DNA of 64,000 nucleotides, from positions 62,001 to 126,000 of the forward strand of contig JANQEE010000030.1 of NCBI GenBank assembly GCA_028278525.1, given 5' to 3'. The stretch comes from Minwuiaceae bacterium (lineage in GTDB: Bacteria; Pseudomonadota; Alphaproteobacteria; Minwuiales; Minwuiaceae). The position numbers and the translations under genes were made by a program. This document shows positions 16,408-50,458 of this stretch, piece after piece (the stretch's first letter is position 1; each line of letters starts with the position of its first letter). The notes beneath the pieces are model-generated. The model saw only the letters and a program-made list of their open reading frames with translations, made no database searches and was not told the origin of the DNA.

Positions 16408-16956
16408 TCAACGCAGCAGGTCGACAAACCGGCTGACTGCTTGATCGATGGGGGCGTCGTTCTGGAAATGCACGACGTCCCGGCCGACGGGCGCGGCGTT
16501 GGAAGGGCGATTGAGGCGCGCCTCGATTTCCTCGGGCGTTTCCCGGCCGCGCTGTTGCAACCGCGCAGCCAAAGCCTGCCGCGACGCGGTCACCGAAATC
16601 ACGCGGACGGGCGGGTAGAGCAGGCGGGCCAGATCGACCACCTCCCGCGATATGTTGGCCACGACGTTTACGCCATTGGCCAACAGATCGGGCACCTCGT
16701 TCGGCAGGCCGTATCGCATGCCATGAGCGCACCAGTGGAGGCTGAAACCGTCCTCGGCGGCGACACGATCGAATTCCTCCGGCGCGATGGCGATGTGGTC
16801 TTCGCCGCCGGCATCGGAGGGACGGGTTATGAAACGTTGCGGGAAGGCAAAGCGGCCGTCGTTTTCGAGCGTGGCCCGCGCGCCGGCAATCAGGGTGTCC
16901 TTGCCGACGCCGCTTGGCCCGACAACCAACAGAAGGGTACCGCGTCCGTTGGTCAA
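16408..16956 (-). CDS. phnN: Ribose 1,5-bisphosphokinase PhnN
   Basis: 182 residues. Phosphorylates ribose 1,5-bisphosphate to PRPP, the last salvage step of the C-P lyase pathway. P-loop GPSGVGKDT (13-21) and guanylate-kinase-like RFITRPSDAGGEDH; lid region around QQRGRETPEEIEARL. It is the last gene of the phn operon here, 7 bp after the HD-domain gene. Confidence 0.92.
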   Translation of the reverse strand: MTNGRGTLLLVVGPSGVGKDTLIAGARATLENDGRFAFPQRFITRPSDAGGEDHIAIAPEEFDRVAAEDGFSLHWCAHGMRYGLPNEVPDLLANGVNVVANISREVVDLARLLYPPVRVISVTASRQALAARLQQRGRETPEEIEARLNRPSNAAPVGRDVVHFQNDAPIDQAVSRFVDLLR

Positions 16957-16963
16957 CGCCGCC

Positions 16964-17512
16964 TCAATTGTACCGGATATGCGCTTCGAGACAGGGACGG
17001 AAGTGTTCCAGACCTGGCGTCTCCGCTGTCGGGTCTTTGGCCAGGTCGTCCCAACGGCGCAGGTTGGCCGCTTCCGCCGCGTAGGGCCGGTTTAGAAATA
17101 TCGCGGCTTCCCTCTCTGAGAAGATTCCGCCTTGCAACGCCAGCGATTGCTTCGATGCCGGGGAAAGGGCGTCGTAGTATCCGGATTCGTGGCGGCAAAG
17201 GAAACGCTTGGCGTCGACATGCAATTGAACCGGCGCGGCGACGGAGTCGTCGAACCATTGCGACAGATACCGTCGGCCCAAATCTTCGTGCCGGGCGTCG
17301 ATGCCGTCGCGGGCCAGGCCTTCGTCGCCGCCTTCGACCAGATGGCCGATATCGTGCAGCAGGCATGCCGCGATCAGGTTGGAGGATGCGCCGTTTTGCT
17401 CCGCCAGGTTGGCGCATTGCAACGCATGAGCGAGCTGGCTTACCCGTTCGTCACCGTAACGCCGAGCGCCGAGGCGGAGTAATATATCCAAAACCCGATC
17501 AACCGGTGTCAT
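16964..17512 (-). CDS. PhnZ-like HD-domain protein (predicted diiron oxygenase) of the phn operon
   Basis: 182 residues; family of HD proteins associated with phosphonate operons. PhnZ itself is a mixed-valent diiron oxygenase that cleaves 1-hydroxyphosphonates. From my memory of PhnZ numbering, every functional residue has a counterpart: Fe ligands H29, H53/D54 (HDIG), H75, H98 and D155; lid Tyr19/Glu22 (YGDE); substrate-contact H57, K102 and S120. That argues for an oxygenase rather than a phosphohydrolase. PhnZ needs a 2-oxoglutarate partner PhnY, which is absent here; a TauD-type enzyme at 49.6 kb is not adjacent. Located between phnM and phnN in a tight operon. Confidence 0.75.
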   Translation of the reverse strand: MTPVDRVLDILLRLGARRYGDERVSQLAHALQCANLAEQNGASSNLIAACLLHDIGHLVEGGDEGLARDGIDARHEDLGRRYLSQWFDDSVAAPVQLHVDAKRFLCRHESGYYDALSPASKQSLALQGGIFSEREAAIFLNRPYAAEAANLRRWDDLAKDPTAETPGLEHFRPCLEAHIRYN

Positions 17513-17527: not shown

Positions 17528-18730
17528 CTAGACGACCCGTGTTCCCGTACGCCATACCGCGCGCACGATTTCGGCGTCGTCGACGCGTTTGACGCGAACC
17601 AGATCGGCCCGTTTCCCGGGTGCGATTTCACCTCTGTCATCCAACCCGGCTGCTTCCGCCGGCGCGCGGCTGACCATGGCGACAGCTTCCGGCAGATCGA
17701 TCATCTCCACCTCGTCGGCGATCTTAAAGGCGGCATGCAGCAGACTGGATGGCACGTAGTCCGACGATACGATGTCCAAGAGCCCTAGCCGCGCAAGGTC
17801 CAGCGCGGATACGTTCCCGGAGTGGGACCCGCCCCGAACCACATTGGGCCCGCCCATCAGGACTTTGAGGTCGTTTCCCGACGACATCTTCGCGGCTTCC
17901 ACCGTCGTCGGAAACTCGGCAATGGCCATACCGTCGGCAATCGCCTCTTCGACATGCGGCACCGTCGCATCGTCGTGACTGGCGAGGGCAACGTCATGGC
18001 TTTGACAGAGGGCGACAATGGCACGGCGGTTGGTTTCGCTATTTTGGGCCTGGGCGGCCATCGCCTCCTCGATGAAACGCTCCATGTCGTCGCCGGTCAG
18101 GCCGTACTTGCCGCCATAGTACTCGCGGTATTTTTCCATGTTGGCGAACTGGCGCTGGCCGGGCGTGTGGTCCATTACCGAAACCAGCCGAACTAACGGG
18201 TTCTCGACGAACTCAACCAGACCCGCGGCGGCGTCGCTGCAGCTCACCTCGCATCGCATGTGCAGGTAGTGCTGGGCGCGGAGGGAATCGTGCCGCTGCG
18301 CCCGCTCCACACAGTCGGCGATACCCTGCACTTGTTGGACTATGGCGTTGTCACCTCTTATGGTGCCGAGACGAAGCGCATCGAAAACGGTTGTGATGCC
18401 GGACACCGCAATTTCGGCATCGTGGGCGACAACAGCCGACATCGATGGCCAAACCACGCCGGGCCGTGGCGAGAAATGGCGCTCCAGATTATCGGTGTGA
18501 AGCTCGACCAGGCCGGGCAGGATATAGTCATCGTCGCAGTCGACGGCGCCTGGGATTTGGGACCGGCCTTCGTCGACCGCGACAATCCGTCCGTCGCTTA
18601 TCATTAGCGACCCGGAGATCACGGAATCGCCCGCCACAATTCGCGCGTTCGTCAGTACGATGTCGGAAGAAGCGGTGCTTGTCAGGTCGTTTACTTGGAT
18701 TTCCATACTTCGGATTTCCATTCCTCGCAT
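17528..18730 (-). CDS. phnM: PhnM, alkylphosphonate ribose triphosphate diphosphatase
   Basis: About 400 residues. Removes pyrophosphate from the 5-triphosphate of the ribosyl phosphonate before PhnJ acts. Amidohydrolase fold: LPGLVELHTDNLERH carries the HxD metal ligands, followed by ITTVFDALRLG, LASHDDATVPHV and IVSSDYVPSSLL. The start is uncertain: ATGs at 18730, 18721 and 18706 are all in frame; 18730 lies 5 bp after the upstream gene. The frame extends upstream to 18856 but overlaps that gene. Confidence 0.93.
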   Translation of the reverse strand: MRGMEIRSMEIQVNDLTSTASSDIVLTNARIVAGDSVISGSLMISDGRIVAVDEGRSQIPGAVDCDDDYILPGLVELHTDNLERHFSPRPGVVWPSMSAVVAHDAEIAVSGITTVFDALRLGTIRGDNAIVQQVQGIADCVERAQRHDSLRAQHYLHMRCEVSCSDAAAGLVEFVENPLVRLVSVMDHTPGQRQFANMEKYREYYGGKYGLTGDDMERFIEEAMAAQAQNSETNRRAIVALCQSHDVALASHDDATVPHVEEAIADGMAIAEFPTTVEAAKMSSGNDLKVLMGGPNVVRGGSHSGNVSALDLARLGLLDIVSSDYVPSSLLHAAFKIADEVEMIDLPEAVAMVSRAPAEAAGLDDRGEIAPGKRADLVRVKRVDDAEIVRAVWRTGTRVV

Positions 18731-18734
18731 TTGC

Positions 18735-19457
18735 TCAGAGTGATGTGACCGCCTGATGACCTGCCGGTCGGGATTGACTGGCCCCGTCGAGAGGAAATCG
18801 GCGGAGCAGCCTAAACGGCTGATCCTGGCGGGTTTGTGCAACAAGGCTGACCGCATCGACGATAAGCGGCTTGTCGCGAAACGGCTGGGTCAGTTCTTCG
18901 AGGCCGGCCAACAGCTTCTTGTTCTGGGCCCGATCGGTGGGACCGGCCAGTGTCATATGGAAACGAAACTCCTCGAACACATACGGATAGCCCCAGTTCT
19001 GCAGCAGCTCTTCCTGCCGCGCCGTCAGTCCGGCCGACCGGCGACGGTCCAGCTCCGAAACCGAGGGCTCAGCCCGGTGAGGTTCGAAGGCCGTCACGCA
19101 ATCGTCCGCCAGCCGGTTGAGCGCGACGCAGGGCTCGACCGGCACGAGCGCGACAAACGACGACAGTGCAACGGGTCGCATCGGCGGTGCCTCGAACGCG
19201 GCGTAGCCCGCCGCGAAACCTGCGACGCTCCGCGCCAGGTCCTCGGCGCTCGAGCGTGCTGCCAGTGCGAACGGCGGCTTCAGCGTCGCATGGAAACCGT
19301 AATGCCGGGCGGAGGCAGTGAGCCGCCGCAACGTCTGCTGCTCGAAACCCGAGATCTCGGGCGACTTTTCGGGCGAGAACCAATCGTTTCCGAACCGGCA
19401 CAGCACGCTGCCGGCCGGCGGCGTGTAGTAAATCGCGTAGCGCGCCTCTGTCGTCAA
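18735..19457 (-). CDS. DUF1045 phosphonate-operon protein (2H phosphoesterase-like)
   Basis: 240 residues. Member of the DUF1045 family found in C-P lyase operons. Two HxT motifs, HATL (H56, T58) and HMTL (H167, T169), spaced as in the 2H phosphoesterase superfamily, so action on a cyclic ribose phosphate is plausible; it may take over the job of PhnP, which is missing here. Experimental function is unknown to me. Sits between phnL and phnM, 18 bp after phnL. Confidence 0.8.
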   Translation of the reverse strand: MTTEARYAIYYTPPAGSVLCRFGNDWFSPEKSPEISGFEQQTLRRLTASARHYGFHATLKPPFALAARSSAEDLARSVAGFAAGYAAFEAPPMRPVALSSFVALVPVEPCVALNRLADDCVTAFEPHRAEPSVSELDRRRSAGLTARQEELLQNWGYPYVFEEFRFHMTLAGPTDRAQNKKLLAGLEELTQPFRDKPLIVDAVSLVAQTRQDQPFRLLRRFPLDGASQSRPAGHQAVTSL

Positions 19458-19475: not shown

Positions 19476-20174
19476 TCAGGCGGCAACATGGCAGTCTCGC
19501 ATGTCGAAGCGCCGGGTCGCGACGGCGTTACGCACCGCCGTGTCGTGGAAGATGCCCAGGATCGCCGTCCCCTGGGCCTTGGCTTCCTGGATCAGTTCGA
19601 TGACGGTCGCCGTATTGGCTGCGTCCAGGGAGGCGGTCGGTTCGTCCAGCAGCATCACGGGATAGCCCGCGATGAACCCCCGCGCGATGTTGACCCGTTG
19701 TTTCTCGCCGCCGGAGAACGTTACGGGCGAGAGTTGCCATAGCGGTTCCGGTATCCCCAAACGGGCCAGCAGGGTCATTGCCTTTGCGTCGGCTTCGGCC
19801 TTGTCGACGCCCAGGCTTCGCAGTGGCTCCCCGACGATGCTCAGCGTGCTGACGCGCGGAATGACCCGCAGGAACTGACTGACGTAGCCCATGGTCCGGC
19901 GGCGGATGTCCAGGACGGTTCGCGGCGACGCTTCGGCAATGTCGATCGGCGATCCATCGTGGCGAACCGAGATTCGTCCGTCCAGGCATCGATAGTTGGC
20001 ATATATCATACGCAGTAGCGAACTCTTGCCAATCCCGGACGGTCCGTCGAGCACGACGCATTCGCCGGGCTCGACGGCCAACGTGACGTTGTCGAACACC
20101 GGGATCGTCGCGCTGCCCTGGGTGTGCAGGGTGAATGTCTTGCCGACATTTTCGATGCTGATCATTTGCGTCAT
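19476..20174 (-). CDS. phnL: PhnL, ABC-type ATPase of the C-P lyase complex
   Basis: 232 residues. Soluble ABC protein that associates with the C-P lyase core; not an importer ATPase. Walker A DGPSGIGKSS, Q-loop YVSQFLRVIPRVS, signature FSGGEKQR, Walker B VMLLDEPTASLD and switch His in GIFHDTAV. The YVSQFLRVIPR segment is typical of PhnL. Start at 20174 (MTQMIS) lies 16 bp beyond the phnK stop; ATG at 20165 is an alternative. Confidence 0.94.
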   Translation of the reverse strand: MTQMISIENVGKTFTLHTQGSATIPVFDNVTLAVEPGECVVLDGPSGIGKSSLLRMIYANYRCLDGRISVRHDGSPIDIAEASPRTVLDIRRRTMGYVSQFLRVIPRVSTLSIVGEPLRSLGVDKAEADAKAMTLLARLGIPEPLWQLSPVTFSGGEKQRVNIARGFIAGYPVMLLDEPTASLDAANTATVIELIQEAKAQGTAILGIFHDTAVRNAVATRRFDMRDCHVAA

Positions 20175-20190
20175 CGGGTTTCCCTCGGCG

Positions 20191-20970
20191 TCAACTCTGC
20201 AGGATGGAGGCGACCAGGAGTTGAGAATATTCATGCTGAGGATCGTCCAGCACCTGGTCCGTCAATCCGGTTTCGACCACCCTGCCGCGGCGCATCACCA
20301 TCATCCGGTGCGACAGCAGCCGCGCGACCGCCAGATCGTGGGTCACGACGACCGCCGATAGCCCCAGGTCACCGACCAGCCCGCCGATCAGGTCGAGCAG
20401 GCGGGCCTGTACCGAGACGTCCAGGCCGCCGGTGGGTTCGTCCATGAAGACGAGGCGCGGTCCGGTAACCAGGTTGCGCGCGATCTGCAGCCTCTGGCGC
20501 ATACCGCCGGAGAAGGTTTCGGGCCGATGATCGACACGCCCCTGGTCGATTTCCACCCGGCCCATCCAGTCCAATGCGGTTTCCCGGATATCTCCGTAAT
20601 GGCGGGCGCCGACGGCCATCAGGCGTTCGCCGATATTGGCGCCCGCGCTGACGGCCATGCGCAGGCCGTCGCTCGGGTTTTGATGGACGAAGCCCCAGTC
20701 CGTCCGCATCAGCAGGCGGCGTTCCGCTTCCGACATGGCGAAGATATCGCGCAGACCTTCATGCCGAGTCCGGTAGCGGATCGTTCCGGCGGAGGGCTCC
20801 AATTGAGCGGACAGGCAGTTGAGCAGTGTCGTCTTGCCCGATCCGCTCTCGCCCACGATTGCAAGCACTTCGCCGGGCCAAAGCTCGAAACTGACCTGCT
20901 CGCAGCCGACCTGGGTACCGTATCGCTTGCCGACATCGTCGGCGACCAGCAGCGGTTCATCCAACGCCAT
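20191..20970 (-). CDS. phnK: PhnK, ABC-type ATPase of the C-P lyase complex
   Basis: 259 residues. Binds the PhnGHIJ core and couples ATP hydrolysis to opening of the complex. Walker A GESGSGKTT, Q-loop FVHQNPSDGLRM, signature FSGGMRQRLQ, Walker B LVFMDEPTGGLD, switch His in VVTHDLAV. Similar to oligopeptide-type ATPases, but the QNPSDGLRM segment and the gene order identify PhnK. Its start overlaps the end of phnJ by 14 bp. Confidence 0.95.
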   Translation of the reverse strand: MALDEPLLVADDVGKRYGTQVGCEQVSFELWPGEVLAIVGESGSGKTTLLNCLSAQLEPSAGTIRYRTRHEGLRDIFAMSEAERRLLMRTDWGFVHQNPSDGLRMAVSAGANIGERLMAVGARHYGDIRETALDWMGRVEIDQGRVDHRPETFSGGMRQRLQIARNLVTGPRLVFMDEPTGGLDVSVQARLLDLIGGLVGDLGLSAVVVTHDLAVARLLSHRMMVMRRGRVVETGLTDQVLDDPQHEYSQLLVASILQS

Positions 20971-21859
20971 CGGCTACCTCCTCGGATGCGGAACCCGGCA
21001 GCGTGCCCGCCATCGGACCGACATGGCCTTCGGCTTGCCGTGCCGTGCAGAAATCTGTGTCCGAGCAAACGAACATGCGGCCGCCGCGGTCGTCGATGAT
21101 GACCTCGTCCAGGAACGAGTCTCTCGCGTTGCAGAGGGCGCAGGCCGCGTCCCAGGTCTGTATCTCGAACGGATGGTCGTCGAAATCCAGGCTCTTCACT
21201 TCGGTGTAGGGCGGGATAGCGTAGATCCGTTTCTCGCGGCCGGCGCCGAACAATTGCAGGGCCGGCATGCGGTCCATCTTCGGGTTGTCGAATTTCGGAG
21301 TCGGCGACGGGTCGGTCACGTAGCGACCGTTGACTTTGACCGGATAGTCATAAGTGGTCGCAATATGGCCATGCGTCGCGATATCTTCGTACAGCTTCAC
21401 GTGCATCAGGCCGTATTCGCTCAGCGCGTGCATCTTGCGGGTCTCGGTCTCCCGCGGTTCCAGAAAGCGGAGCGGTTCCGGGATCGGGACCTGGTAGACC
21501 AGAATCTGTTTATCGCTCAGCGCCGTCTCGGGGATGCGGTGCCGGGTCTGCACGATGCTGGCTTCGTCGGTCTGCTCGGTAGTCTTCACGCCGGTTGTGC
21601 GGACGAAGAACTTGCGGATGCTGATGGCGTTGGTCGTGTCGTCGGCACCCTGGTCGATCACCTTCAACACGTCGTCCGGGCCGATGATGCCGGCGGTCAC
21701 CTGAACGCCGCCGGTGCCCCAACCATAGGGCATCGGCATTTCGCGGCTCGCGAACGGCACCTGATAGCCGGGGATGGCGACGGCTTTCAGGATCGACCGG
21801 CGGATCATCCGCTTGGTCTGTTCGTCCAGATAAGCGAAGTTATATGTACCGTCGGACAT
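20957..21859 (-). CDS. phnJ: PhnJ, radical SAM C-P lyase catalytic subunit
   Basis: 300 residues. Breaks the carbon-phosphorus bond of ribosyl phosphonate 5-phosphates using a 4Fe-4S cluster and S-adenosylmethionine. The unusual cluster cysteines are in ACALCNARDSF and VCSDTDFC: C240, C243, C265 and C271, one residue off the E. coli numbering, so all four are conserved, including the active-site thiyl cysteine. GVQVTAGIIG and the Gly32-like region are also in place. Cytoplasmic, part of PhnGHIJ. Ends overlapping phnK. Confidence 0.97.
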   Translation of the reverse strand: MSDGTYNFAYLDEQTKRMIRRSILKAVAIPGYQVPFASREMPMPYGWGTGGVQVTAGIIGPDDVLKVIDQGADDTTNAISIRKFFVRTTGVKTTEQTDEASIVQTRHRIPETALSDKQILVYQVPIPEPLRFLEPRETETRKMHALSEYGLMHVKLYEDIATHGHIATTYDYPVKVNGRYVTDPSPTPKFDNPKMDRMPALQLFGAGREKRIYAIPPYTEVKSLDFDDHPFEIQTWDAACALCNARDSFLDEVIIDDRGGRMFVCSDTDFCTARQAEGHVGPMAGTLPGSASEEVADGVG

Positions 21860-21863
21860 CGTA

Positions 21864-22958
21864 CTACTCCGCCGCAGATTTCATCGGCGTATCGATTGCA
21901 GCACGCATCTTGCGCACCAGTTCCAGTTCCGACTGGAAGTCGACGTAGTGCGGCAGCTTCAGGTGTTCGACGAAACCGGTCGACTGGACATTGTCGCTGT
22001 GCGACAGCACGAATTCCTCGTCCTGGGCCGGTGATCCGGCTTCCTCGCCAAACTCCCGGCACCTGAGCGACCGGTCGACCAGGGCCATGGCCATTGCCTT
22101 GCGCTCGCAATGGCCGAAGGTCAGGCCGTAGCCGCGGGAGAATTGCGGCGGCACCTCCGCCGAGCCCTGGAACTGGTTGATCATCTGGCATTCGGTGACC
22201 GCGATTTCGCCGATTTCGACCGGGAAGCCAAGCTCTTCCGGTTCGAATTCGACCGTGACGTCGCCGAGCCGGATTTCTCCGGCGAACGGGTGGGTGCGGC
22301 CGTAGCCGCGCTGCGTCGAATAGCCGAGCGCCAACAGGAAGCCTTCGTCGCCCCGGGCCAGGTTCTGCAAGCGCAGGTCGCGGCCGGCGGGAAAGGTGAG
22401 GGGATCACGAGTCAGATCGCCGACAGACGCCTCGGCGGGTTCCGGCCGCTCTTCCTCGATCAGGCCCTCGTGGTTCAGGATGTCGACCACGCGGGGAACC
22501 GGCGCATCGGACGGCTCGGCTTCGGCGGCCGGTTCCGGATGGGTGCCGCCGTCTGCCGCAAGCTGGAAGTCGAGCAGACGGTGGGTGTAGTCGAAAGTCG
22601 GCCCCAACACCTGGCCGCCCGGCAAATCCTTGTAGGTCGCGGAAATCCGACGCTGGATCGACATGTCGGCGGTTTCGATCGGCTCCGCGTAGCCGAAGCG
22701 CGGCAGGGTGGTGCGGTAGGCCCGCAGCAGAAAGATCGCCTCGATCAGATCGCCGCGCGCCTGCTTGATGGCGAGCGCGGCCAGTTCCCGGTCGTGCAGG
22801 GAACCTTCGGTCATCACCCGGTCGACCGCGAGGCCGAGCTGACCGGCGATCTGATCCAGCGTGACCTCGGGAATTTCCGGATCGCCACGCCGTTCTTCAT
22901 CCAACAGCCGGTGCGCATTCTCGATGGCCCGTTCGCCACCCTTGACGGCTACATACAT
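21864..22958 (-). CDS. phnI: PhnI, C-P lyase core subunit
   Basis: 364 residues, normal for PhnI. With PhnG, PhnH and PhnL it replaces the N-glycosidic base of ATP by phosphonate to give the ribosyl triphosphate. Typical beginning MYVAVKGGERAIENAH and motifs RRISATYKDLPGGQVLG, FAFGHCERKAMA-like YGLTFGHCERKAM, and FVLSHSDNVQSTGFVEHLKL. Four base pairs separate it from phnJ and three from phnH. Confidence 0.96.
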   Translation of the reverse strand: MYVAVKGGERAIENAHRLLDEERRGDPEIPEVTLDQIAGQLGLAVDRVMTEGSLHDRELAALAIKQARGDLIEAIFLLRAYRTTLPRFGYAEPIETADMSIQRRISATYKDLPGGQVLGPTFDYTHRLLDFQLAADGGTHPEPAAEAEPSDAPVPRVVDILNHEGLIEEERPEPAEASVGDLTRDPLTFPAGRDLRLQNLARGDEGFLLALGYSTQRGYGRTHPFAGEIRLGDVTVEFEPEELGFPVEIGEIAVTECQMINQFQGSAEVPPQFSRGYGLTFGHCERKAMAMALVDRSLRCREFGEEAGSPAQDEEFVLSHSDNVQSTGFVEHLKLPHYVDFQSELELVRKMRAAIDTPMKSAAE

Positions 22959-22961
22959 TCT

Positions 22962-23570
22962 TTAAACCTCTACCCGAATGGAACGTGGCAGCGCGGCAAG
23001 CCGATCCGCGGCGGCGAAGACCAGATCGACGCCGCGCGGGAACAGCGTTCCGTTGGCCCGCACCTGTTCCCAAAAATCTGTCGGCAACGGACCGGCATCG
23101 AGCGCCGTTTTGTGTTCGATGCCCGGCCCGCTGAGCGTGACGCCGGCCTGGTTGGAAAGCCGGTCGACCTGCAGCACGATGGTCGCAGACCGGTCCGGAT
23201 ACTCGTCACTGCCTTGCGCGAACGAGGCGAGCGGCGGCAACGTCGTCGGGTCCGTGGCTACGGCGAACACAGCCTCTCCATGCGCCTCCGGCAGCGAGCA
23301 TCCGCAATGGAACCTGAGGTGCCGGCGCGCCGCTTCGGCCGCGGCGGATTGATCGTCGATCCACAACGGCGTGTCGAAGTCGGCCAGCGTCAGGCAAACC
23401 GCGGCGGCCGTGCGGTTAAGCGGCAGCGGCGCGTCCGGAAGATCGCTTAGCTGAACGATCCGGCCAGGGTGGGACATCGCATCCAGCACCGCGCGGAACA
23501 GGCGTTGCGCGTCGAACACCGGGTCGGCGAACCCCGGATGCAGCGCCGCGGCTTCGGCAGACACCGGCAT
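22962..23570 (-). CDS. phnH: PhnH, C-P lyase core subunit
   Basis: 202 residues. Structural subunit of the PhnGHIJ complex. Recognisable FRAVLDAMSHPGRIVQL near the N-terminus, TLADFDTPLW, and the C-terminal ELEGPGI-like TLSGPGIEHK, FWEQVRANGTLFPRGVDL stretch. One base separates it from phnG. The gene order G-H-I-J-K-L removes doubt. Confidence 0.95.
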   Translation of the reverse strand: MPVSAEAAALHPGFADPVFDAQRLFRAVLDAMSHPGRIVQLSDLPDAPLPLNRTAAAVCLTLADFDTPLWIDDQSAAAEAARRHLRFHCGCSLPEAHGEAVFAVATDPTTLPPLASFAQGSDEYPDRSATIVLQVDRLSNQAGVTLSGPGIEHKTALDAGPLPTDFWEQVRANGTLFPRGVDLVFAAADRLAALPRSIRVEV

Positions 23571-23571
23571 C

Positions 23572-24024
23572 TCAGTCTTCTCCTCGCACCATCGTGAAGA
23601 ATTCCACCCGTGTCGCCGCCGCCTTGGCCTGCTTGCGGCGTTCGGTTTTCGACCGGGTCTCGGCCAAAGGCTCCAGCAGGGTTTTTTTCAGGTCGGGACC
23701 GTGCGGCGATTGCAGCAGAGCGTCGAAGACGGCCGCGAGCTCGGCGTGCCTGGCGTTGCGGCCGGCGACATAGCCGTAGCCCGTGGTGCCGGCATCGATG
23801 GTGAGCGCACACCGGGTAACCGTCATTTCGCCGAGATTGAAGGCGCCGCCGGTGCCGCCGGCGCGTCCGCGCACCATAACCAGACCGGTTTCCGGTTTAC
23901 GCAGCCATTGCCAGTCGGGCTTTTCGGGCAGAGCGTTCCAGGCGGTCTCCAGATCGTCGCAGCTGGCTTTGGCCAGTTCTCCCATCCATGCGCGGCGTTC
24001 GCTGGTCCGGTCGGCCGGCTGCAT
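23572..24024 (-). CDS. phnG: PhnG, C-P lyase core subunit
   Basis: 150 residues. First subunit of the C-P lyase core, with PhnI forming the nucleosidase-like activity. Contains RRAWMGELAKA, GLVMVRGRAGGTGGAFNLGE, VTRCALTI and TGYGYVAGRNARHAEL, all typical. ATG at 24024 chosen because AGGAAAAG lies just upstream; an in-frame TTG at 24045 is less likely. First gene of the operon, facing phnF. Confidence 0.95.
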   Translation of the reverse strand: MQPADRTSERRAWMGELAKASCDDLETAWNALPEKPDWQWLRKPETGLVMVRGRAGGTGGAFNLGEMTVTRCALTIDAGTTGYGYVAGRNARHAELAAVFDALLQSPHGPDLKKTLLEPLAETRSKTERRKQAKAAATRVEFFTMVRGED

Positions 24025-24089
24025 CGATTCTTTTCCTTGCACCAATTGATAAATTCATCTATACGTATAGATCATACTCAACCCTGTTT
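24025..24089. promoter_or_regulatory. Divergent phnG / phnF control region
   Basis: 65 bp, the only spacer between the C-P lyase operon and its regulator, AT-rich, with the phnG ribosome-binding site at its left and the palindrome at 24057-24072. Both promoters must lie in or overlap this segment. Confidence 0.7.
24057..24072. promoter_or_regulatory. Perfect 16-bp palindrome, probable PhnF operator
   Basis: ATCTATACGTATAGAT is identical to its reverse complement. It begins 33 bp upstream of the phnG start codon and ends 17 bp before phnF, so a bound dimer would block both promoters. GntR/HutC-family repressors, to which PhnF belongs, bind short palindromes of this kind with central TATA/GTAT-like halves. 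Confidence 0.7.
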
Positions 24090-24878
24090 ATGACATCAAG
24101 AGAAACGAGTAAAGCGGTGGCACATGAAACTTTGGTGACAGGCGGTGCGGGTGAGATGGAACGAGGCAGAGGCATCGCTCTTTGGCGCCAGATAGAGCAG
24201 CAATTGACGGCGGATATCGCCTCCGGCCTTTACCCGGAAGGCAGCCGGCTGCCGACCGAACCGGAATTGGCGGCGCGATTCGCGGTCAACCGGCACACCC
24301 TGCGGCGCGCGATTCGCGCGCTGGGCGATCAGGGCTTGGTCAGGGTCGAGCAGGGGCGGGGCACCTTCGTTCAGGAAAATGTGGTCGACTACATGATCGG
24401 GCGCCGCACGCGCTTCAGCGAGATCATCTCAAGTCAGAACAGAACGCCGAGCGGGCAATTGCTGCGGGCGTTCGAGGTTGACGCGACCGGGACGGTCGCC
24501 AAGGAACTGAAGCTGAAGCAGGGAACGCGCTGTGCCTGTCTCGAGACCGTCAGCGAAGTCGATTCGCGGCCGCTCAGCTTGGGGACCAGCTACTTTCCGG
24601 TGAAACGGTTTCCCAACCTGATCGCCGTCTATGCAGAAAACGGCTCGATCACCAAGACGCTGGAGCATTTCGGCGCCGGCGATTACGAGCGCCGCACGAC
24701 GAGGATCACCGCCAGACTGCCGGACAGCGAGGAAGCCAAGATTTTGCGTCAGCCGGTCAATCGGCCGCTTCTGATTTCCGAAAGCGTGAACATCGACCGG
24801 GATGGCGCGCCGATTCAATACGGCATCACACGGTTCGCCTCGGACCGCATTCAGTTGGTCGTGGAAACCGGCGATTGA
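24090..24878 (+). CDS. phnF: PhnF, GntR/HutC-family regulator of phosphonate genes
   Basis: 262 residues. N-terminal winged helix (LWRQIEQQLTADIASGLYPEG, LPTEPELAARFAVNRHTLRRAI) then the UTRA ligand-binding domain with ISSQNRTPSGQLLR, SLGTSYFP and a final FASDRIQLVVE. Probable repressor of phnG-N, relieved by a phosphonate or phosphate metabolite. ATG at 24090 chosen; the frame opens further upstream through the operator, which is not credible coding. Converges on hpnM. Confidence 0.9.
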   Translation: MTSRETSKAVAHETLVTGGAGEMERGRGIALWRQIEQQLTADIASGLYPEGSRLPTEPELAARFAVNRHTLRRAIRALGDQGLVRVEQGRGTFVQENVVDYMIGRRTRFSEIISSQNRTPSGQLLRAFEVDATGTVAKELKLKQGTRCACLETVSEVDSRPLSLGTSYFPVKRFPNLIAVYAENGSITKTLEHFGAGDYERRTTRITARLPDSEEAKILRQPVNRPLLISESVNIDRDGAPIQYGITRFASDRIQLVVETGD

Positions 24879-48101: not shown

Positions 48102-49586
48102 ATGCGCGTCGTCATCGCGATGATGAAACACGAGACCAACACTTTCTCTCCGGTGCCGACGCCGATAGAGCGGTTCGCGAGGGGCCAGGCGCTGCCCTTC
48201 TACGGGGAGGAGGCGTATCGCGCCTACAAAGGGACAGGCAGCGGCATCGGCGCCTTCATCGACATCGCCGAGGAGGAAGGTTGGGAGATCGTCACGCCCA
48301 TCGCGGCCAACGCCTGGCCGAGCGGTCTGGTCCACGACGACGCCTATCGGCAGATGGTCGATGCGATCTGTCAGGCTGTCGAACAGGGCTGCGACGCAGC
48401 GATGCTGGACCTGCACGGCGCGATGGTCACCCAATCGTACGAAGACGGCGAGGGGCAATTGCTGACCCGGCTGCGCAAGATCGCGCCGGATCTGCCGATC
48501 GCGACCGCGCTGGACATGCACACCAATCTCTACGAAGACATCGTCGCCAACTCGACGATCGTCGCCGGCTATCAGACCTATCCCCACATCGATACTTACG
48601 AGACCGCCATGCGCGCCGGGCGACCGCTGGTGCGGGTGCTGAAAGGCGAGGTCATCCCGACGATGGCCTGGGGCAACCGGCCGATGCTGCCGCATGTGAT
48701 GCGTCAGGGCACCGACGACTATCCGAATAAGGATCTGCAAACCCGGACCAAGGAAATGGAGGCCGGCGAGGCGCTGGCCGCGACCGTGTTCACCGGCTTC
48801 CCCCATGCGGATATTCAGAATGCGGGACTGAGCGCGGTGGTCGTGACGGACAACGATATGGCGAAAGCCGAAAAGCTGCGCGACGAACTGCTCGACACGG
48901 CCTGGGGCGCGCGCGAAGCGTTCGTCTATCGGATCGAACCATTGGAGACGTCGCTGGCGCGGGCCAAGACTGTGGAGGATGGGCCGGTCGTCCTGCTCGA
49001 CCACTACGACAACGCGGCATCCGGCGGGACCATGGACACCATGACCGTGCTTGGCGCTATCCTGCGCGAAGGGTTGGAAGACGTGGCGGCGTTCGCGATC
49101 CACGACCCGGAAGCCGTGCAGCAGATGATCGCCGCCGGCGTCGGCGCGACGGTGACCGTCAGCCTCGGCGGTAAGATCGACATGCCGTCGATCAACCTGA
49201 AAGGCGAGCCGCTGGAGGTGACGGGCAGGGTCAAGCTGATCTCCGACGGCCAATACCGCAACCTTGGGCCGGCGTCCAAAGGCGTGCTGATGGATATGGG
49301 GCCGAGCGTCGTGCTGGATACCGGCAAGGTCGAGATTGTCGTGATCTCCCGGCATCAGGAACCGAACGATCTCGGCTGCTTCCTCAGTCTGGGGATCGAC
49401 CCGCGCACCAAGCGCTATCTGATGCTGAAGAGCCGCATCCATTACCGCGCCGGCTTCAAGCCGATCGCCAAGGAGATCATCGAATGCGCCGGCACCGGCG
49501 TCTGCACCTCCGACTACGATCAGCTTGAGTTCAAGAACGTGCGCCGGCCGATCTATCCGCTGGATCTGATCAATGAACCGGGATAA
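48102..49586 (+). CDS. M81-family metallopeptidase (MlrC type)
   Basis: 494 residues. MlrC, the founding member, cleaves linearised microcystin; the family hydrolyses small peptides or amides. Two domains: N-terminal with MKHETNTFSPV, LDLHGAMVT, ALDMHTNL and YPHIDTYET (zinc ligands), and C-terminal beginning near LLDHYDNAASGGTMD. It does not prove microcystin breakdown; M81 proteins commonly sit beside dipeptide ABC transporters, as here about 8 kb away. First gene of a plus-strand group, 5 bp before the dioxygenase. Confidence 0.85.
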   Translation: MRVVIAMMKHETNTFSPVPTPIERFARGQALPFYGEEAYRAYKGTGSGIGAFIDIAEEEGWEIVTPIAANAWPSGLVHDDAYRQMVDAICQAVEQGCDAAMLDLHGAMVTQSYEDGEGQLLTRLRKIAPDLPIATALDMHTNLYEDIVANSTIVAGYQTYPHIDTYETAMRAGRPLVRVLKGEVIPTMAWGNRPMLPHVMRQGTDDYPNKDLQTRTKEMEAGEALAATVFTGFPHADIQNAGLSAVVVTDNDMAKAEKLRDELLDTAWGAREAFVYRIEPLETSLARAKTVEDGPVVLLDHYDNAASGGTMDTMTVLGAILREGLEDVAAFAIHDPEAVQQMIAAGVGATVTVSLGGKIDMPSINLKGEPLEVTGRVKLISDGQYRNLGPASKGVLMDMGPSVVLDTGKVEIVVISRHQEPNDLGCFLSLGIDPRTKRYLMLKSRIHYRAGFKPIAKEIIECAGTGVCTSDYDQLEFKNVRRPIYPLDLINEPG

Positions 49587-49591
49587 CCGAC

Positions 49592-50458
49592 ATGCGCAAC
49601 AGCAGGATTGACGTTTCGCCGATTGCCGGCTCGCTCGGCGCCGAGGTGTCGGGCGTCGATCTCTCGAAACCGTTGGCCGACGCCGCCGCGGACGAAGTCC
49701 GTGCGGCGTTCGTCGAACATCAGGTGTTGTTCTTCCACGACCAGCGCCTCACACCGGAGCAGCAGATCGCGTTCTCCGGTCTGTTCGGGCCTGTGACCCA
49801 GGTGCCTTACATCAAACCGCTGGACGATTACCCGGAGATCGTCGCGGTCCTGAAAGAGGCTGACGAAAACAAAATCGCCACGTTCGGCGGCGACTGGCAT
49901 TCCGACTTCAGCTATCTGGAGGAACCGCCGGCGGCGTCGGTACTGTACGGGCTGGAAATCCCTGCCTTTGGCGGCGATACGTTGTGGGCCGACATGTATG
50001 CCGCGTTCGAGGCCCTGTCGCCCGGCATGCAGCGCAAGCTGGAGCGGATCAACGCCATGCATAGCGGCCATGTCTATGGTGCCGCCATGCAGGACACCGA
50101 CCTGCGCCTCAGCCGGTCGATAGAGATCAGCCGCGGCAATGCCGAGGCGGACGTAGAGCGGCCGCATCCCGTGGTCCGGGTTCATCCGGACTCCGGCCGC
50201 AAGGCGTTGTTCGTCAACCCGATCTACACCACCCGTCTGGAAAACATGACCAAGGCCGAAAGCCGGCCAATTCTGAGGTTCTTATACGATCATTGTACAA
50301 GGCCGGAGTTCACCTGTCGCTTCCGCTGGCGGCCCGGCGATGTGGCGGTGTGGGACAATCGCTGCACGCTGCACTACGCGGTCAACGACTATGACGGTAG
50401 CCGGCGCCTGCTGCATCGGACGGCGATTGCCGGCGACCGGCCGATTGCCGCGGCCTGA
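49592..50458 (+). CDS. TauD/TfdA-family Fe(II)/2-oxoglutarate dioxygenase
   Basis: 288 residues. Iron ligands in GGDWHSDFSYLE (H103, D105) and distal His in LHYAVNDY (H261), with the 2-oxoglutarate Arg at R271/R272 in GSRRLLHR. Family members hydroxylate sulfonates, phenoxyacids, amines or phosphonates; substrate cannot be assigned. Translation is likely coupled to the M81 gene (5 bp gap). Confidence 0.86.
   Translation: MRNSRIDVSPIAGSLGAEVSGVDLSKPLADAAADEVRAAFVEHQVLFFHDQRLTPEQQIAFSGLFGPVTQVPYIKPLDDYPEIVAVLKEADENKIATFGGDWHSDFSYLEEPPAASVLYGLEIPAFGGDTLWADMYAAFEALSPGMQRKLERINAMHSGHVYGAAMQDTDLRLSRSIEISRGNAEADVERPHPVVRVHPDSGRKALFVNPIYTTRLENMTKAESRPILRFLYDHCTRPEFTCRFRWRPGDVAVWDNRCTLHYAVNDYDGSRRLLHRTAIAGDRPIAAA

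Follow-up and report, generated by a model that had tools for sequence, protein, structure and literature searches.

A predicted PhnZ/TmpB-type oxygenase encoded inside a complete C-P lyase operon, and the recurrent linkage of its family to C-P lyase

The closest described relatives of the gene analysed here are PhnZ (HF130_AEPn_1, PDB 4mlm/4mln/4n71) and TmpB (Leisingera caerulea, PDB 6npa), which have a YxxE loop as a common feature (PMC8177086); PhnZ is paired with the hydroxylase PhnY*, and TmpB adjoins TmpA. Homologues of phnZ are also found within phnWX and phnWAY clusters, never with the lyase PbfA, which acts on (R)-2-amino-1-hydroxyethylphosphonate (HAEP); PhnW-PhnX does not process HAEP properly, and inhibition of E. 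coli has been reported (PMC8154272). A PhnHD of Achromobacter (TIGR03276) has phosphonatase (phnX) and HpnW genes as neighbours and lacks PhnY*, and HAEP was proposed for it from modelling in 2024 (PMC11203657). That C-P lyase operons can hold a substrate-specific C-P gene has already been remarked on (PMC9381506). Two plasmids have, within or adjoining their phnC-N genes, a gene annotated as "phosphonate degradation HD-domain oxygenase": in Variovorax sp. SRS16 it follows phnCDE, and in Nostoc sp. ATCC 53789 it is flanked by a phnM-like gene and phnJ, with FosA and GNAT genes close by. The Nostoc plasmid is conjugative, and besides the HD oxygenase its C-P lyase cluster (L253, 4487-13382) contains FosA, GNAT and a pair of phnM-like genes. 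The family is therefore already named, and the idea of an orphan PhnHD consuming HAEP has been published for phosphonatase operons (2024; PMC11203657); what we add is a measured, recurrent linkage of the family to C-P lyase, the exclusion of the protein as a substitute for PhnP, and a pointer to endogenous aminophosphonate synthesis.

The gene compared with these systems lies in a window of 64,000 nucleotides, the whole stretch of DNA that was analysed, from a Minwuiaceae bacterium (assembly GCA_028278525.1, contig JANQEE010000030.1, positions 62,001 to 126,000). It occupies 16964..17512 on the minus strand and encodes, from an ATG start, a protein of 182 amino acids, here called PhnHD; the original prediction had placed the open reading frame correctly, without giving its strand, and had also correctly placed it inside a C-P lyase operon, where phnM and phnN flank it. 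The operon is complete, in the order phnGHIJKL-DUF1045-phnM-PhnHD-phnN, and all of its genes are on the minus strand: phnG (23572..24045; TIGR03293, 185.8 bits), phnH (22962..23570; TIGR03292, 191.1 bits), phnI (21864..22958; 61% identity to E. coli PhnI), phnJ, the C-P lyase catalytic subunit (20957..21859; 79% identity to E. coli PhnJ; PF06007, E 2.1e-147), phnK (20191..20970; TIGR02323, 386.9 bits), phnL (19476..20234; TIGR02324, 324.8 bits), a DUF1045 gene (18735..19457), phnM, for the RPnTP diphosphatase (17528..18856; NF011983/TIGR02318), PhnHD itself, and phnN, for ribose 1,5-bisphosphokinase (16408..16956; TIGR02322, 202.5 bits against a cut-off of 156). PhnG, PhnH, PhnK, PhnL, PhnM and PhnN each score above their own NCBIfam cut-off, the match in phnM beginning only at residue 63-67 of an open reading frame whose 5' end is probably over-extended. 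A divergent phnF-type GntR/UTRA regulator (23988..24878, plus strand; PF00392 and PF07702) stands at the head of the operon. PhnHD begins 15 nt after phnM and ends 7 nt before the annotated phnN start, a tight spacing that makes its co-transcription with the C-P lyase genes likely. A scan for promoters and terminators, uninformative for this organism, gave nothing above shuffled expectation.

By profile search, PhnHD adds one more member to a family that is known and already named. It matches TIGR03276, "phosphonate degradation HD-domain oxygenase", over residues 4-178 at 216.9 bits, a margin of 2.3 bits over the cut-off of 214.6, and it lies in the setting that goes with this profile, a phosphonate catabolism cluster. 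Among PDB sequences, phmmer returned PhnZ (E 1.6e-28) and TmpB (E 3.4e-27) and no others, and at these values the similarity is not due to chance. Its scores against the narrower equivalogs for PhnZ1 (hydroxymethylphosphonate dioxygenase, NF052439; 143.7 bits) and TmpB (NF049941; 142.6 bits) fall short of the cut-off of 300 in both cases, and TmpA is absent from the operon. Like the Achromobacter protein, PhnHD belongs to the TIGR03276 family and is an orphan with respect to PhnY* in a phosphonate-degradation cluster; unlike it, its neighbours are C-P lyase genes.

The active site was read from a multiple alignment of 132 family members with PhnZ (4mlm) and TmpB (6npa). In this alignment, PhnZ Tyr24, Glu27, His34, His58, Asp59 and His62 correspond to Tyr19, Glu22, His29, His53, Asp54 and His57 of PhnHD, and PhnZ His80, His104, Lys108, Ser126, Arg158 and Asp161 to His75, His98, Lys102, Ser120, Arg152 and Asp155. 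PhnHD thus has six metal ligands (His29, His53, Asp54, His75, His98 and Asp155), a YxxE lid (Tyr19-Gly-Asp-Glu22), and equivalents of what we take, with the help of the alignment, to be the substrate contacts of PhnZ beyond Tyr24 and Glu27 (His57, Lys102, Ser120 and Arg152). The same set is present in PhnZ and, identically, in TmpB. All six ligands, the Tyr/Glu lid pair and the His, Lys and Ser contacts had been predicted, and the alignment agrees, adding the Arg; the constant offset from PhnZ that had been claimed holds at 5 up to His80 and becomes 6 from His104 on, through one single-residue gap. Across the 37 C-P-lyase-linked members (PhnZ numbering), Tyr24, His34, His58, Asp59, His80, His104, Lys108, Ser126 and Arg158 are invariant, Asp161 is kept in 36 (Glu in the remaining one), His62 likewise in 36 (Arg in one), and Glu27 in 31 (Ser in five, Gln in one).

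The six ligands on their own were rejected as proof of an oxygenase, because the HD core is also present in PgpH-like hydrolases and in the closest paralogues. Among the matches listed, the nearest non-family HD proteins retain this H...HD core, have the YxxE motif replaced and do not align an Arg with Arg158; one of them retains the His at position 62. It is the YxxE, Lys, Ser and Arg set, together with the ranking of folds, that separates oxygenase from hydrolase. An AlphaFold2 model of PhnHD (mean pLDDT 95.7) matches TmpB with Z 27.0 (rmsd 1.6 over 171 residues, 36% identity) and PhnZ with Z 26.4 (33% identity over 176 residues). Structures of the PhnZ/TmpB type span Z 24.4-27.0 against this predicted model, compared with 11.0 for myo-inositol oxygenase (MIOX) and at most 9.6 for non-oxygenases and hydrolases, a gap also seen with Foldseek alone (E about 1e-10 or better versus 0.04). 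MIOX resembles PhnHD in its HD-domain diiron oxygenase fold and differs in having no YxxE loop, in cleaving a C-C bond and in its low identity. A structure-based comparison with PhnZ and TmpB had been proposed as a check: both were top matches to the predicted model, and in the sequence alignment no ligand is missing. Sequence, active-site set and predicted fold together make it well supported that PhnHD is a mixed-valent diiron oxygenase of the PhnZ/TmpB type. Of the original prediction, a PhnZ-type phosphonate-oxidising enzyme within a C-P lyase operon, the predicted class and the location therefore stand, and what falls is the description of such genes as usually known only as HD proteins: the NCBI name is "phosphonate degradation HD-domain oxygenase", including for annotated copies in C-P lyase clusters.

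The family is not uniform at these positions. A supported subclade has Ser, Ala or Thr in place of Glu27 (L129, L131, L132, L134, L136, L240, L227, L242, L243 and L125); it includes C-P lyase copies from the window organism's own family relatives, and its members possibly act on a different substrate. A strongly diverged member (L139, in genome G041) has Gln, Ala and Cys at the positions of His62, Ser126 and Asp161 and so has lost one metal ligand; copies related to it occur in G155 and G235.

The association with C-P lyase was measured in 289 genomes sampled evenly from the same class as the window organism, with family members counted by the related NF052439 profile at E below 1e-20; the frequencies come from this survey only, and 80 loci collected by patterns of the window protein are a biased sample. 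The survey found phnJ in 53 genomes, the family in 72 and both in 44, so that the family is present in 44 of the 53 genomes with phnJ versus 28 of the 236 without it (Fisher p 5e-24, a statistic that ignores relatedness). In 20 of the 53, the family gene is linked to phnJ, on the same contig and within 12.2 kb (within 5.4 kb in 19 of these). Its position differs among C-P lyase clusters, where it may follow phnM, separate phnM from phnN (the order also found in G189 and G266) or lie between phnC and phnF, and relatives of the window organism (G002-G008) carry a copy from another subclade at another place in the cluster. When family members on a maximum-likelihood tree are labelled as C-P lyase-linked or not, the label switches 16 times, and at least 7 of the switches fall on well-supported branches. 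The label changes and the different copies of the relatives make the association a recurrent one, in which linkage to C-P lyase has, as far as the tree reflects it, been gained or lost repeatedly; a single origin of the linked group is not supported by the tree. PhnHD falls outside the supported clade of TmpA-linked genes that contains TmpB, and it does not group with PhnZ either. Among 132 distinct rows, 17 family genes lie directly beside TmpA-type genes and 30 occur with an HpnW-family FAD enzyme, often with a phosphonatase-like hydrolase; context labels are incomplete where flanks are short, which inflates the class "other". One arrangement, in L012 and similar loci of Bacteroidota and Planctomycetota, combines an HpnW-type FAD enzyme, a phosphonatase-like hydrolase, an HpnZ-type alcohol dehydrogenase and an MFS transporter.

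The same survey bears on whether PhnHD could belong to the C-P lyase pathway itself, as an HD phosphohydrolase that replaces PhnP and opens the ribosyl 1,2-cyclic phosphate before PhnN acts. HD proteins are mostly phosphohydrolases (PMC8177086), phnP is absent, and the position between phnM and phnN is where a gene for a PhnP-like step would be expected. However, the PhnP cut-off is reached in none of the 53 phnJ genomes, with or without PhnHD, and linked PhnHD is absent from 33 of them, whereas DUF1045 is found in 52, including all 20 with linked PhnHD; an apparent lack of DUF1045 at linked loci, judged from local neighbourhoods, did not hold once whole genomes were searched. The 2H-family gene of operons without phnP is a proposed PhnP replacement (PMC10574752). 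In the window that gene would be DUF1045, which is 2H-phosphoesterase-like (TIGR03223, 235.2 bits, below the cut-off of 248.95; PF06299, 181.1; LigT/2H matches weak). Its persistence, with the role proposed for the 2H family, indicates that the cyclic-phosphate step is covered, and PhnHD was rejected as the PhnP replacement on the retention of DUF1045 in all 20 linked genomes. The conserved YxxE/Lys/Ser/Arg oxygenase set and a predicted fold that ranks among oxygenases also argue against a hydrolase, and from these gene and residue distributions we consider it highly unlikely.

PhnY had been described as missing. This is correct for the operon, in which no adjacent 2-oxoglutarate hydroxylase was found, so that the two-gene layout of PhnY and PhnZ does not apply; the genome does have an unlinked PhnY-like gene on another contig (C70). 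The TauD-family gene of the window (49592..50458, plus strand), which had been put forward for checking as a partner of the PhnY/TmpA kind, is not a credible one: it is taurine-dioxygenase-like (PRK09553, 264.7 bits; only 23.1 bits against the TmpA profile) and has an MlrC-like neighbour. At 48102-50458 an MlrC/M81 metallopeptidase-like gene is followed by this dioxygenase gene, with no phosphonate genes alongside. A TmpA-like gene elsewhere in the genome (contig C14) was also rejected, as gamma-butyrobetaine dioxygenase scores higher (383.1 versus 357.8) and a choline ABC transporter adjoins it. Among the 20 linked genomes, TmpA scores above its cut-off in only 4, each of which carries, 35-50 bp from it and in the same orientation, a second copy of the family, and a PhnY-like match above 100 bits occurs in 3 (G000, G091 and G295); by these counts, C-P-lyase-linked copies are usually without a hydroxylase. 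One 1.6-Mb genome of the window organism's class does have a PhnY1-like and PhnZ1-like pair, which lies downstream of phnDCE (L224:6018-7356).

PhnHD might still be the second half of a relay of the PhnY/PhnZ type, supplied by the unlinked PhnY-like hydroxylase (L244:9795-10580) or by another 2-oxoglutarate oxygenase of the genome. In this genome the methylphosphonate hydroxylase profile has a single strong hit, the C70 protein (164 bits, the next being 41.6), which is 27% identical to the PhnY1-like protein that is paired with a family member in L224. Yet its score is far under the 500-bit cut-off, its gene is on another contig beside hopanoid genes, and a match above 100 bits occurs in only 2 of the 19 other linked genomes; we regard such a relay as doubtful.

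The reading that we prefer, with a probability of about 0.68, is that PhnHD is an oxygenase of the PhnZ/TmpB kind that forms an accessory branch of C-P lyase for a pre-hydroxylated, HAEP-like phosphonate, without a dedicated hydroxylase. For its iron content, oxygen use, substrate, co-transcription and physiological role, we infer the following scheme. An (R)-1-hydroxyphosphonate would bind one iron of a mixed-valent diiron site, the YxxE loop would give O2 access to the second iron, and cleavage of the C-P bond would yield phosphate and a carboxylate. The likeliest substrate would bear an amine, as HAEP does, because Glu22 is kept and its PhnZ equivalent, Glu27, contacts the substrate amine. 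PhnHD would handle directly a pre-hydroxylated phosphonate that is imported or otherwise available, with release of phosphate and possibly removal of an inhibitory substrate, making a dedicated hydroxylase unnecessary. Direct use of pre-hydroxylated aminophosphonates is favoured because linked copies are usually without a hydroxylase, and a HAEP-handling role for C-P-lyase-linked PhnHD would be analogous to that proposed for the orphan in phosphonatase operons; the Nostoc plasmid cluster with FosA and GNAT is in keeping with an accessory function directed at particular phosphonates. Against this, Glu27 is lost in 6 of the 37 linked members, so that the substrate may differ within the group, and the organism's own genome has PhnW and the unlinked PhnY-like hydroxylase, which leave room for a hydroxylase-dependent route.

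A phosphonate oxygenase for a substrate other than HAEP, such as an N-methylated AEP derivative, hydroxymethylphosphonate or another 1-hydroxyalkylphosphonate, is a possible if tentative alternative: characterised relatives use HAEP, trimethyl-HAEP and hydroxymethylphosphonate (PMC10574752), and PhnHD, as noted, groups with neither TmpB nor PhnZ on the tree, but the retained amine-contacting Glu weakly disfavours amine-free substrates. If the accessory-branch reading is true, many C-P lyase operons hold a second route to C-P cleavage, dependent on O2 and independent of a hydroxylase, and 1-hydroxyphosphonates would be common or harmful enough in nature to merit a dedicated enzyme. Metagenome counts of phnZ as "2-AEP degradation by PhnYZ" would also be partly wrong, because many phnZ copies are without PhnY, and what orphan PhnZ enzymes consume becomes a testable question.

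The genome itself may supply an aminophosphonate. Contig C15 (L248:8239-13024) encodes PhnW/AepZ, phosphonopyruvate decarboxylase and a PEP mutase fused to an NTP transferase, adjoining polysaccharide-type genes, and from this gene set the organism probably makes 2-aminoethylphosphonate. That it also makes its own 1-hydroxy-aminoethylphosphonate, with the PhnY-type enzyme being biosynthetic for hydroxylated phosphonolipid head groups and PhnHD serving in their salvage, is an outside chance. Two neighbourhoods, in two genomes only and with a profile score far below its cut-off, suggest that hydroxylated phosphonolipids may be made and that HAEP may arise within the cell. On contig C70 (L244:7180-10580), the PhnY-like 2-oxoglutarate oxygenase gene lies by genes for a CDP-alcohol phosphatidyltransferase, hpnA and hpnL. 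In G091, one of the linked genomes, a hydroxylase 52% identical to the C70 protein is encoded beside hpnB, hpnC and hpnD, and a CDP-alcohol transferase with 41% identity to that of C70 is encoded beside that genome's own PEP mutase.
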